From Flavobacteriaceae bacterium (GTDB lineage: Bacteria > Bacteroidota > Bacteroidia > Flavobacteriales > Flavobacteriaceae): a stretch of 64,000 nucleotides of DNA. Shown here in pieces: positions 38,756-61,279 of the stretch; positions within the stretch are counted from its first letter, which is position 1; every line of letters begins with the position of its first letter. The position numbers and the translations under genes are program-made. Under the pieces are notes generated by a model that worked only from the letters and a program-made list of their open reading frames with translations, ran no database searches and was not told the origin of the DNA. The stretch is taken from NCBI GenBank assembly GCA_947453885.1, contig CANGIF010000002.1:78230-142229 (forward strand), written 5' to 3'.

Positions 38756-40147
38756 CTAGTCGATACAAAGTTTTTGAATTTGTTTGTAATCTTGGTTGCT
38801 CACTGTTAGATAATAAACACCTTTTGAAAAAGTAGCCGTGGCAATGGTTACATTGTTTTGGGCTGAGTAGGATTGAGAAAAAACAGTTTTACCCAAACCA
38901 TCCGAAATACTAACCTGAAAAGGGCTAGGAGTTTCGGTAAAAGTTAAAGTGATTTGGTCTTTGGCAGGATTAGGAAACACCACCACAGAAGCTTTGTCTA
39001 CAAACGGAGTATCTGTTAAAGAAACAGGACATTCAATAGCTGTCGGCACATATTCATCAAAACTTGTTCCGTCGCCCAATGCTCCATTGCCATTGTAACC
39101 CCAAGCCCAAAGACTACCGTCTGTTTTCAATGCAAGTGTATGCCATAAACCTGCACTTACACTTTGCCAATTGGTAGCAGTACCTATTGTTGTAGGTACA
39201 TTTTTATTTACAGTTGTACCATCTCCTAATTGTCCAAAATTATTTAATCCACAAGCCCAAAGCGTACTATCTGTTTTCAGTGCTAATGTATGAGCATTAT
39301 TTGATATAACACTATGCCAATTGGTAGCTATTCCTATTTGTGTTGGCACATTTCTAACTATGTTCGTTCCATCACCTAATTGCCCAAAATCATTAGATCC
39401 CCAACTCCAAAAAGAGTTATTTGTTTTTATAGCAATTGAATGAACGCTTCCCGCACTTATACTTTGCCAGTTCGTAGCAGTTCCTATTTGTGTGGGTACA
39501 TGTTTATCTATTGTTGTGCCGTCTCCTAATTGTCCATAATTATTTGATCCCCATGACCAAAGAGTGCCGTCGGTTTTTATAGCTAAATTATGAGAATATC
39601 CAGAAGTTATACTTTGCCAATTAGTAGCTGTTCCTATTTGTGTGGGTACATTTTTATTTGTCGTTGTTCCATCGCCTAAATTCCCGTATGAATTATCTCC
39701 CCAAGCCCAAAGTGTTCCGTCAGTTTTTATAGCAACTGAGAAATTTTCTCCAGTACGTATACTTTTCCAATTGGTAGCTGTACCAATTTGTGAAGGAAAT
39801 AATTTGTATATAGTCGTTCCATTTCCTAATTGACCATATTGATTTTTACCCCATGCCCAAAGGGTGCCGTCTGATTTTATAGCAACTGAATGACCGCTTC
39901 CTGCACTTATACTTTGCCAATTTGTAGCAGTACCTATTTGTGTGGGCACATTTTTATTTGTCGTTGTTCCATCGCCTAAATTCCCATTTGAATTATCTCC
40001 CCAAGCCCAAAGAGTGCCATCGGCTTTTATGGCTATTGAATAATCAAAACCTGCGGCAATTTTTGTAAAACATTGCGCTGAGAGTGCATGGTTGGTTAGT
40101 AGTAAAAAGAATAAAGCAATTGTTTTGAGGTAGTGTAGTGTTTTCAT
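38756..40147 (-). CDS. Secreted RCC1-repeat protein with type IX secretion C-terminal sorting domain
   Basis: Seven ~50-aa units ([43 protein letters not shown]); C-terminus [16 protein letters not shown]...[30 protein letters not shown] start chosen. Confidence 0.92.
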
Positions 40148-40175
40148 AAATTGTTTGTTTTTTCCCTTCCCCAAG

Positions 40176-40285: not shown

Positions 40286-41032
40286 TTACACCGCTGGATT
40301 TACTGGTGGTGTAGTACCGCCGTTACCGTTTCTGTGGGCTATGATGTTGGCGTAATAGCTGCGTCCGTTGTTTATGGCTTCTAATGCGGTTACAAAATAA
40401 GGACTTGGTGTGCGGCGGTTTGCCATAGTCAAACAGTATTTGGCTAGTTCTTTATAAGTAGTAAAAATGTTTTTCTTTAACAATTTGGTATTGTACACTA
40501 CGGTACTCACGGTGGTGTTTGAACGGTTGTTAAAAGTAGTTTTGAACAAATTGTTGGCTGCTTCTAGTTCGTCTATTTGCTCTATCATGTTCAACAATTG
40601 TACTAACGGCAAATGCTCGGTTGATTTTAGCCCTGCAATGTAGTTGTCAATGCCTAACGATTCTGCTTCGTAATTTTCGGTTGCCAGATTTTTATAGGTA
40701 TTGATTAAAGGTTTCAACTGGTTGTAGGCTTCTTTTTTAGCCACAACATCAGTATCGCGATAGTTGTTCCATGCACCACGAACGGCGGTTATTTTTCTAT
40801 CTCTTCGCACGTCGAGTTGCAACAACAACTCACTTTCGGCTTGGGCAACTACTTGTGCCAACGCGGCTAAATAAGTAGGCAATTGTTCTTCGAGGTCGGT
40901 GTAAATTAATTTAAATTCGGGGTCGAAACCAATGGCTAGCCCTGTGCCTTCAAAATCTAAAAAAAAGCGTCTGAGGAATTGACCTGATTCTAAATTGTGT
41001 AATAATGAGGTAATAATTGGTACTAATTTCAT
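40286..41032 (-). CDS. DUF6261-like protein of unknown function
   Basis: FFLDFEGTGLAIGFDPEFKLIYTDLEEQLPTYLAALAQ, helical protein, C-terminal ANIIAHRNGNGGTTPPVNPAV; family recalled from memory, not searched. Confidence 0.6.
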   Translation of the reverse strand: MKLVPIITSLLHNLESGQFLRRFFLDFEGTGLAIGFDPEFKLIYTDLEEQLPTYLAALAQVVAQAESELLLQLDVRRDRKITAVRGAWNNYRDTDVVAKKEAYNQLKPLINTYKNLATENYEAESLGIDNYIAGLKSTEHLPLVQLLNMIEQIDELEAANNLFKTTFNNRSNTTVSTVVYNTKLLKKNIFTTYKELAKYCLTMANRRTPSPYFVTALEAINNGRSYYANIIAHRNGNGGTTPPVNPAV

Positions 41033-41061: not shown

Positions 41062-41069
41062 CAAACGTA
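41062..41069 (-). promoter_or_regulatory. Putative -7 box for the DUF6261-like gene
   Basis: Minus strand TACGTTTG (TAnnTTTG), 30 nt before the start; no clear -33 TTG. Confidence 0.35.
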
Positions 41070-41192
41070 AGAAATTAAATAATAGGAATTGCATAAGTTT
41101 TAAAAAAAATAGTGCATTCCTTTAGCAGATTACTTTTTTATAAAAAAACCCTAATTTTTAAAAAAGCAGTTGTAAAAAAGTACCTTTTTTGT

Positions 41193-41356
41193 TCCTTGGA
41201 AGTTCCAAGAAGGAAAATAAGTAGTTTTCTGAGTCCTTGGAAGTTCCAAGAAGGAAAATAAGTAGTTTTCTGAGCCCTTGGAAGTTCCAAGAAGAAAAAT
41301 CAAACTTGTTTTTGGCTCTTGGAGTGTGGAAGCAAGAAAAATCAAATTTTTTGTAC
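41193..41356. repeat. 41-bp-period tandem array (4 units) with internal palindrome
   Basis: Units start at 41193, 41234, 41275, 41316; units 1 and 2 are identical (TCCTTGGAAGTTCCAAGAAGGAAAATAAGTAGTTTTCTGAG), unit 3 keeps the CTTGGAAGTTCCAAG palindrome, unit 4 is degenerate. Confidence 0.9.
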
Positions 41357-58868: not shown

Positions 58869-61279
58869 CTTAACATCATATCTTTTAGTTTTACATACCA
58901 TGGAATTGGGTCTGTATTAACATCTACTCCATAACCGTACCCGTATCCGTATCCGTATCCGTATCCGTATCCGTAACCGTAACCGTATCCGTAACCTTTT
59001 GCTAATTCAGTATCATTTAGTAAAATTGACATGTTTGGAAGTTTATTTCCTATATATAATGATTGTGGTAGTTTTAACATTCGTTTATCTAAATAATTTG
59101 CTCTCACTACATAGATAAAAGTATCTGCATATTTAGCAATTAACATGGTATCTGTAACTAAACTAACTGGTGGTGTGTCTACAATTATATAATCAAATTG
59201 CTGTTTCAAAGTATTAAACATAAGATCAACTCTAGATCCCATTAATAACTCTGCTGGATTAGGGGGTATTAATCCAGCAGGTAAAACATAAAAATTTTCA
59301 TATCCTTCTTGTTTAATTAATAAGCTTTCTAAATCCGTGTTTTTTGAAGATAGAAAAGTTGTAACTCCTTTGTTAGATAAATTCATATATTGATCCAATT
59401 TTGGATTTCTAATATCTAATCCAATAAGTAAAACTTTCTTACCTGACAATGCAAACGTACTGGCAAGATTTACAGAAATAAAAGTTTTCCCTTCCTTTGG
59501 AAAAGTAGAAGTAACGAAAATTGTTTTTGCGATTCCATCAGCTACTTGATTAACCATAAAATCAAGATTAGTTCTAATTATACGCATTGATTCTGCAATA
59601 CTAGAACGACTATTTTCTTTAATTAAAACTTCAAGTGTATCTGATTTAGGAATATCGCCAATAAATGGTATAGTAACTCTTGATTCAACATCTGTTCTAT
59701 TCTGAACTTTATTGTTAAATAAATCCCTAAAATAAATTATTGCAAAAGGTATTAATAAACCAATAAAAAAATATATTAAATATATGATACCTTTTACAGG
59801 TGAAACTGGAGTTGGATTAGGATAAGCAGCATCTATTATTTTAGAATTTGGTGCAGTTGCAGCAAGAGAAATAGCATTCTCTTCTCTTTTTTGAAGTAAA
59901 TACAAATATAAAGTCTCTTTTATTTGTTGCATTCTAGATATACTTCTTCCTTCTTTTTCTTGACCTGGAACTGCTCCAATTTTATTATTTAAAAAAGCTT
60001 CTTGATTTTTTAAATCATTTATAGAAATTTCTAAGGCTGATTTATAATTGCTAATACTTTTTATTATACTTAATCGTAAATCTTCTAATTGTTTATTTAG
60101 ATTTATTACGAATTGATTATCGTCTGTTGTAGTTTTTCGTATTCTAGTTCGATCATTAATTAATTTATTATATGTTACAATCAAATTGAACGCATCCGAT
60201 TGTTCTGGTATAACATTCCCGGGTATTATGTCATTGTTTGTATTTTTTGCAATATACTTTAACATAAAATCAGCAACTTTTATCTGAGTTTGAGATTCAA
60301 GAAGTTTTTTCTCAAAATCAGTTGAGGCTTGTAGAAAAATTGTTGATTGGGCAGTAATGTCTGTAATCTTATTTTTTCTTTTAAATAATTCTAAATTAGT
60401 TTCAACGCTATCTAACTCTTTTGTAATGTTTTTTAATCTATCATTGATAAACAAATTTGTTTTTTGTGAAACTATATTTTTGTCTTCGATAGCATCATCA
60501 TTATATATTCTTATTAAAGTATTCAAAAAATCTATTCCAATGTCTTTTACAGGATGAACAAAAGATAACTTTAATACACTACTAGTCATTTTATTAACAG
60601 GTTCTATTTTTAGCTTATTTTGATAACTATTAACTACTTTATCAATAGAACTCAATAAAATTTTCACCTTTTTTATTTCGTCTTTATTATTCAAATTTTC
60701 TAAATTCTTAGTAACAACTAAATTTCCAAGTTTGCTTTTAACTGTTTCACCGTATGAAAATTTTCCTTTACTAGCTTGATTGAAATCTAGCAATTCATAT
60801 TTATTTTCTGAAATAAAATGAATTGAAAAGGTTGTATCTGTTTCATAAAATGTTTTAGATTTATTAATGAAATTTACAGTTATGGGCAAATCTTTATATG
60901 CTTGAATTGTTTTTAACCTGCCCTCAGTAAAATAATTAACATTCAAATTTAATTCTGAAATAGTATTCTTCAATAAAGACCTAGATTTCAAAACTTCCAT
61001 CTCGTTATCTACATTACTCTTTACCGCTCCTAATAAACCTAAATCAGAAAAAGTAGATAACTCTGAAGCTACTCCTCCTTTTTTGTCATCCTTTATAAGT
61101 ATTGTAGCAGAAATCTGATATTGAGGAGTAGTATATCTTAAAAATAAAAAAGCTAAAAAAAGAAAAACAAAAGTTGATAAAAGAAACCATTTCCAATGAA
61201 CAAAAAATTTAAAAAACTGTTCTTGTAGGTTTATTGAGCTATCATTTTGGCTTTGATTTGAATTAATATTTGTATTCAT
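58853..61279 (-). CDS. wzc: Wzc-type polysaccharide co-polymerase/BY tyrosine kinase with (GY)11 tail
   Basis: N-terminal Wzz domain with two TMs; TIFVTSTFPKEGKTFISVNLASTFALSGKKVLLIGLDIRNPKL (Walker A/A'), FDYIIVDTPPVSLVTD (Walker B), Tyr-rich tract. Confidence 0.96.
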   Translation of the reverse strand: MNTNINSNQSQNDSSINLQEQFFKFFVHWKWFLLSTFVFLFLAFLFLRYTTPQYQISATILIKDDKKGGVASELSTFSDLGLLGAVKSNVDNEMEVLKSRSLLKNTISELNLNVNYFTEGRLKTIQAYKDLPITVNFINKSKTFYETDTTFSIHFISENKYELLDFNQASKGKFSYGETVKSKLGNLVVTKNLENLNNKDEIKKVKILLSSIDKVVNSYQNKLKIEPVNKMTSSVLKLSFVHPVKDIGIDFLNTLIRIYNDDAIEDKNIVSQKTNLFINDRLKNITKELDSVETNLELFKRKNKITDITAQSTIFLQASTDFEKKLLESQTQIKVADFMLKYIAKNTNNDIIPGNVIPEQSDAFNLIVTYNKLINDRTRIRKTTTDDNQFVINLNKQLEDLRLSIIKSISNYKSALEISINDLKNQEAFLNNKIGAVPGQEKEGRSISRMQQIKETLYLYLLQKREENAISLAATAPNSKIIDAAYPNPTPVSPVKGIIYLIYFFIGLLIPFAIIYFRDLFNNKVQNRTDVESRVTIPFIGDIPKSDTLEVLIKENSRSSIAESMRIIRTNLDFMVNQVADGIAKTIFVTSTFPKEGKTFISVNLASTFALSGKKVLLIGLDIRNPKLDQYMNLSNKGVTTFLSSKNTDLESLLIKQEGYENFYVLPAGLIPPNPAELLMGSRVDLMFNTLKQQFDYIIVDTPPVSLVTDTMLIAKYADTFIYVVRANYLDKRMLKLPQSLYIGNKLPNMSILLNDTELAKGYGYGYGYGYGYGYGYGYGYGYGVDVNTDPIPWYVKLKDMMLRKKSK
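58929..58994 (-). repeat. Hexanucleotide microsatellite encoding (Tyr-Gly)n in wzc
   Basis: Eleven consecutive 6-bp units (CCATAA, CCGTAC, 5x CCGTAT, 2x CCGTAA, CCGTAT, CCGTAA on + strand). Confidence 0.95.

Follow-up and report, generated by a model that had tools for sequence, protein, structure and literature searches.

Tandem arrays of dyad-symmetric DNA sites with a constant period of four helical turns accompany DUF6261 genes in Bacteroidota and point to an undescribed gene-plus-array module

Introduction

In Rep/iteron systems, direct repeats are placed near two helical turns apart beside the cognate gene, and ParR proteins, which are typically of the ribbon-helix-helix type, also bind direct repeats. 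In ParR/parC systems, the tandem repeats are usually located upstream of the operon and are bound by the cognate protein, with repeat sequences that vary by family and a ParR that does not bind parC of other families; in the case of pSK41 ParR these repeats are 20 bp long (PMC9426499). A further arrangement is that of REP/REPIN elements with RAYT (TnpA-REP), in which palindromic repeats lie by one cognate gene and REPIN sequence classes track the gene lineage (PMC3116915, PMC2817692).

The DUF6261 family (PF19775) is listed in Pfam with no function given, a full-text search for its name returned a single match, a Streptococcus oralis paper with one mention, and a published description of arrays such as those analysed here was not found in literature searches. 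Here, an array next to a DUF6261 gene in a 64-kb window, by which the whole stretch of analysed DNA is meant, is described and compared with the surroundings of DUF6261 genes in other genomes.

Results

Architecture of the array in the window

The array at positions 41193-41356 (recorded, like its dyads, without strand) is composed of four 41-bp units starting at 41193, 41234, 41275 and 41316, hence with an exact 41-bp step, of which the first two (41193-41233 and 41234-41274) are identical, the third (41275-41315) is a variant and the fourth (41316-41356) is degenerate. Strict phasing and identity of units 1 and 2, initially noticed in a sequence-only reading, were confirmed by these unit starts and by TRF, which reports a period of 41 with a score of 202 and finds no other array of period 38-46 in the window. 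When up to 2 mismatches are allowed, the window contains three occurrences of CTTGGAAGTTCCAAG as compared to 0.33 expected, and three copies were reached in 0 of 100 shuffles.

The palindrome CTTGGAAgTTCCAAG, designated dyad A, is present in three exact copies (41195-41209, 41236-41250 and 41277-41291), and a fourth, degenerate copy can be discerned by eye at about 41318-41338. The initial description of a conserved palindrome followed by a variable segment can be refined, since the AT-rich segment is best interpreted as another inverted repeat, whose halves change jointly. This dyad B is read directly as GAAAAtaagtagTTTTC at 41214-41230 and recurs as a direct repeat at 41255-41271, while its variant AAAATCAAACTTGTTTTT at 41296-41313 has both halves unlike those of copies 1 and 2 and retains the inverted repeat; a left-edge copy, AAAAAAGTACCTTTTTT, lies at 41174-41190. 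On this reading two dyads alternate, with centres at about 41182, 41202, 41222, 41243, 41263, 41284 and 41304, and hence a spacing of 20-21 bp. The array continues to the left of 41193, and the flank AAAAAACYCTAATTTTTAAAAAAGCAGTTGTAAAAAAGTACYTTTTTTG (41143-41192) is nearly letter-identical to a second array of the same genome. A CRISPR array would have constant repeats and unique spacers; here unit 2 repeats unit 1 over its whole length, and Cas proteins are absent among the Pfam-annotated neighbours in the window. Elsewhere in the window, at 58935-58993, a CCGTAT hexanucleotide is repeated in tandem in about 10 copies.

The DUF6261 gene encodes a 248-aa protein at 40286-41032 on the minus strand, and the array is thus located 5' of its start. 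The protein belongs to PF19775, with an E value of 4.6e-27 and 95.3 bits against a cut-off of 27. Between the array and the gene, 37 bp ahead of the ATG, a weak candidate -7 promoter box, TACGTTTG, is found at 41062-41069 on the minus strand, and no -33 box was recognised for this candidate promoter. Pfam names RCC1-repeat and glycosyltransferase proteins among the neighbours. Directly downstream on the same strand lies an RCC1-repeat gene with a Por sorting tail (38756-40174), and a comparable 150-bp coding repeat is found downstream of DUF6261 at another locus (L045). The polysaccharide locus in which the array had been placed is not a context that recurs around DUF6261 in the gene-neighbour analysis.

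Association of arrays with DUF6261 across genomes

DUF6261 has a patchy distribution in the genus of the window (4/148 genomes), and it was found in 6/200 genomes of the family, in 7/347 of a phylum sample and in 5/296 genomes of a second class of the phylum. In a second genus, 72/149 genomes contain it, with up to 5 copies each. It was found neither on plasmids nor on phages.

The link between the array and DUF6261 is strong across genomes, and it holds through geometry and not through sequence. Periodicity of 41/42 bp at z>=2 was observed in 76 of 88 upstream regions of DUF6261 genes as compared to 9 of 215 controls, the latter being upstream regions of other genes at the same loci (Fisher 7e-48). 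Averaged over the 88 regions, the autocorrelation z is nearly the same for lag 41 (3.54) and lag 42 (3.53), harmonics appear at lags 82-84 and the half period is visible at 20-21, whereas the 215 control regions exhibit the codon signal alone. With a threshold of z>=3, 70/88 DUF6261 upstream regions are positive versus 2/136 ORF-free intergenic controls, and of these two, one is a displaced DUF6261 array copy (L130) and the other, judged by sequence, lies in coding repeats. Similarly, the 39 kb upstream of DUF6261 contain 35 TRF arrays of period 40-43, as compared to 2 such arrays in the other 532 kb, one of these being the second array of L049. Arrays are displaced in six exceptions, being located just downstream of the gene in L098, L102, L143 and L144, and further upstream in L149 and L049. 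In the second class of the phylum, seven of eight newly fetched DUF6261 loci peak at 41/42 bp. As these loci are not independent, the P value has to be weighed together with the lineage count: at 40% protein identity the sample comprises 15 lineages, of which 13 by our own count have a clear array, the lineage of L053 having none and that of L147 being doubtful. Thus, the proposed tie of the array to the DUF6261 family is upheld, since a 41-42-bp array flanks nearly all sampled DUF6261 genes. At L130 the array seems to be split by a 204-aa ORF, with an array edge on either side (positions -1300 to -1216 and -250 to -130, counted from DUF6261), and in L143 and L144 (G292) the 41-bp array downstream of DUF6261 is accompanied by a 27-bp tandem repeat of the ACAGGGTCATTCTGGCGGGCCAGCCCG type.

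Period, dyad symmetry and covariation

The pooled period centroids of 41.5, 83.1 and 124.5 bp correspond to a unit of four B-DNA turns at 10.38 bp per turn, and palindrome centres are enriched at spacings of 10, 20-21 and 41-42 bp, a spacing that matches DNA helical phasing with the sites on one face. Most units are dyad-symmetric, and the dyads are regarded as being under selection: the best dyad score of 23 non-redundant unit consensuses amounts to 5.91 versus 4.05 after shuffling, above 200 of 200 shuffle sets; the arrays of L043, L140 and L142 have no strong dyad in their consensus. The core CTTGGAA-N-TTCCAAG, which had been proposed as a common signature, is not shared, and period and dyad symmetry alone are conserved.

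How letters change while symmetry is kept can be followed in an in-register alignment of 16 related loci from one clade, where dyads are replaced symmetrically, with the variants CCTGCAATTGCAGG, TTCCG..CGGAA and CCAAGctCTTGG, and further AAAACAA..TTGTTTG versus CTCCTGCAAgTTGCGGGA. Covariation between halves in orthologous arrays is 0.258 as compared to 0.156 after shuffling (0/500) and to 0.06-0.145 when the structure is slid out of register, values to be read with the caveat that the structure was drawn by eye from the very sequences tested and that these sequences are related.

These regularities bear on the simplest origin of a tandem array, namely a neutral minisatellite generated by slippage or unequal crossing-over. 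Such an origin would account for the identity of neighbouring units and for a copy number that varies from about 2 to 12, but slippage would not be expected to yield a shared period, dyads or halves that covary symmetrically, whereas unrelated loci keep the 41-42-bp period with different letters and controls lack it. The observed period distribution strongly opposes this explanation, which is hence regarded as highly improbable.

Lineage specificity of the arrays

Unit sequences differ between lineages and also between paralogues of one genome. The share of array words common to paralogues of the same genome (<35% identity) is 0.054, close to the 0.045 of unrelated loci, while orthologues (>=70% identity) reach 0.160. 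Judged by these words, each module appears to have its own code, and with regard to the orthologues, co-inheritance alone could explain why array similarity follows the protein lineage. Because paralogous arrays in one genome are unlike, a single host factor acting on all of them is unlikely.

Further copies and orphan arrays

On another contig, the same genome has a second array (G000:C27:40207-40421; L018:3210-3460) that matches the one in the window at 86% identity over 215 bp, left flank included. Its neighbours, identified from their sequences without a family search, are a large outer-membrane-receptor-like gene and a substrate-binding-like gene, and DUF6261 is not near. The outer ends of this orphan, AAAAAAGCAGTT and AACTGCTTTTTT, form a perfect 12-bp inverted repeat, and it is possible that the orphan serves as a target in trans. 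The second DUF6261 gene of the genome is N-terminally truncated and is without an array of the window type; at this locus (L017, G000:C33:30143-30376), the truncated gene is followed by two copies of GTCAGACYRGTCTGAC at its broken end, perhaps the remnant of another array. Taken alone, the orphan array and the array-less truncated gene would argue against the link between array and DUF6261. A degenerate orphan 41-bp array without DUF6261 is also present in another genome (L165, G028:C64, near 12606).

BLAST of the window array against 148 genomes of the genus returned chance matches only, mostly in coding sequence, and when 85,462 genomes were scanned for TTGGAANTTCCAA sites in pairs, the matches were unrelated, among them coding repeats in Chryseobacterium and Planctomycetaceae, Leucobacter repeats and 21/42-bp arrays of two Bacteroidetes MAGs; paired TTGGAANTTCCAA sites in viral contigs were not found. 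In the two MAGs, the long 21/42-bp arrays are of the TTGGAAnTTCCAA type and extend over several contigs (L035, L036, L040 and L041), and DUF6261 was not found in either genome.

Orphans are what would be expected of a REPIN- or MITE-like mobile repeat, with DUF6261 as a domesticated transposase mobilising it: the array at G000:C27 has diverged and retains the common flank, the G028 orphan is degenerate, and DUF6261 itself is patchy and in some genomes multi-copy. This explanation is nevertheless weak, and we hold it to be quite improbable, as one extra array in its own genome and one weak array in G028 do not constitute a high-copy population, paralogous arrays within one genome differ, and DUF6261 is not matched by any transposase family, Pfam giving DUF6261 alone and NCBIfam and PHROGs nothing significant.

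DNA or RNA

A structured ncRNA with repeated stem-loops was among the readings offered from the letters; as considered here, it would be a leader or a small RNA and would regulate DUF6261 or bind it. In favour of it, the window array folds better than its shuffles on both strands (z of -3.4 and -2.25), and the mean z across the family is about -3.5. The folding is, however, equally strong on both strands, with family means of -3.54 for the strand of the gene and -3.36 for its complement, a difference not beyond composition (p 0.31), and no strand-specific structural signal is found. The stems contain GU and AC pairs at similar frequency (79 vs 63), and an Rfam search with the window array gave nothing near a gathering score. 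A strict Bacteroidota-type promoter, TTTG-N17-21-TAnnTTTG, occurs in 14 loci, at -78 to -26 in 13 of them and at -120 to -88 and further up in L145, and since it is gene-proximal to, or overlaps, the array edge or last dyad, the array lies largely outside the DUF6261 leader in those loci. In addition, arrays are found on either side of DUF6261, and their period corresponds to a whole number of B-DNA turns. Thus, the RNA reading is unsupported and judged improbable.

The DUF6261 protein and a neighbouring HTH gene

The window DUF6261 is a stand-alone protein, predicted to be all-helical with a pLDDT of 94 and a 55-residue helix. A fold search with the predicted structure gave no PDB or viral match at E<=0.001, and a PADLOC search for known anti-phage defence proteins gave no hit. 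Residues D74, R77, D78 and F163 are invariant in the family and Y121 is nearly so, and many homologues are acidic, with a pI of 4.5-5.

In 19 loci, the array is directly preceded by a same-strand gene encoding a Cro/C1-type HTH protein (HTH_3/HTH_19). These proteins have 115-132 aa and a coiled-coil-like C terminus, and the order xre-array-duf6261 is seen in L118, L119, L122, L134 and 15 others. Their C-terminal segment is conserved, with EKLIEQYEERIKELKEQVEYWKN in several of the 19 loci. The HTH gene is absent from most DUF6261 loci, including the window; no other gene recurs and none recurs in most loci, so DUF6261 is the sole constant partner of the array.

Cro/C1 proteins bind dyads of similar length, and together with the placement of the HTH gene this lends some weight to the view that the dyads bind a separate regulator, be it the HTH protein or another factor, with DUF6261 merely as the regulated target or effector. 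Against it, most loci keep the array although the HTH gene is missing, and the differing arrays of same-genome paralogues contradict a model with one host factor per genome; a separate regulator is considered unlikely.

Discussion

A reading in which array and DUF6261 form a cognate module, the helically phased dyad sites being a platform for nucleoprotein assembly by DUF6261 or the HTH protein that accompanies it, is regarded as probable. Each DUF6261 gene would be paired with its own array of dyad-symmetric sites, with one site per two helical turns (about 20.75 bp) and units of four turns (41.5 bp), and such a spacing would place every site on the same face of the double helix. The binder may be an oligomer, most likely DUF6261 or, in some loci, the neighbouring Cro/C1-type HTH protein, which would occupy the dyads cooperatively along one DNA face. 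The resulting ordered nucleoprotein patch could control the neighbouring promoter, amounting to autoregulation, or could nucleate a larger complex, and a role in positioning the locus is among further possibilities; where the array is downstream of DUF6261, it cannot be a simple operator of that gene. DNA geometry would set the spacing, while the recognised letters would drift along with the cognate protein lineage, and it is proposed that for this reason the modules of paralogues within a cell would be free of cross-talk. Of the readings offered from the letters, an array bound by a dimeric protein fits best, and its protein-binding part is adopted here as a presumption. Counting against this reading, DUF6261 is without a recognised DNA-binding fold and many of its homologues are acidic; the rarity of the HTH gene, the few arrays that have no strong dyad and the weak promoter of the window speak against it as well. 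A bolder and more tentative proposal is that DUF6261 represents a new class of array-binding or architectural proteins, which may form phase-locked filaments on their own palindromic arrays, with a specificity that evolves fast among lineages and paralogues and a fixed four-turn ruler in at least two classes of Bacteroidota.

With these arrays, an uncharacterised family gains a directly testable DNA partner. The gene is nearly always accompanied by an array, in which geometry alone is conserved and letters are not, and because the letters differ at each locus, similarity-based annotation is blind to them. They also provide a natural series of diverged protein-site pairs, in which the evolution of specificity under a fixed helical spacing can be followed.

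Among described systems, ParR/parC is alike in having a tandem array, usually upstream of its gene, with a sequence that differs between lineages, but the DUF6261 array is built of dyads, its protein is all-helical with no fold match, DUF6261 has no match in the plasmid collection, and no ParM, ParA or TubZ NTPase recurs beside it as in partition systems. With iterons, the DUF6261 arrays have in common sites near two turns apart next to a gene, whereas no Rep is found by them, they were not seen on plasmids and up to five different modules occur per genome. The likeness to REPINs lies in palindromic arrays beside one gene with a sequence that follows the gene lineage; unlike REPINs, the DUF6261 array is not dispersed at high copy (one further copy in G000 and a weak one in G028), and no Y1/HUH transposase is recognised by Pfam, NCBIfam and PHROGs family models. 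By analogy, the DUF6261 module thus seems to resemble ParR/parC or Rep/iteron in its anatomy and to differ from them in those defining features that can be tested, and a constant period with dyads beside diverse DUF6261 copies points to an undescribed module of a gene and a DNA array with a candidate protein binder.
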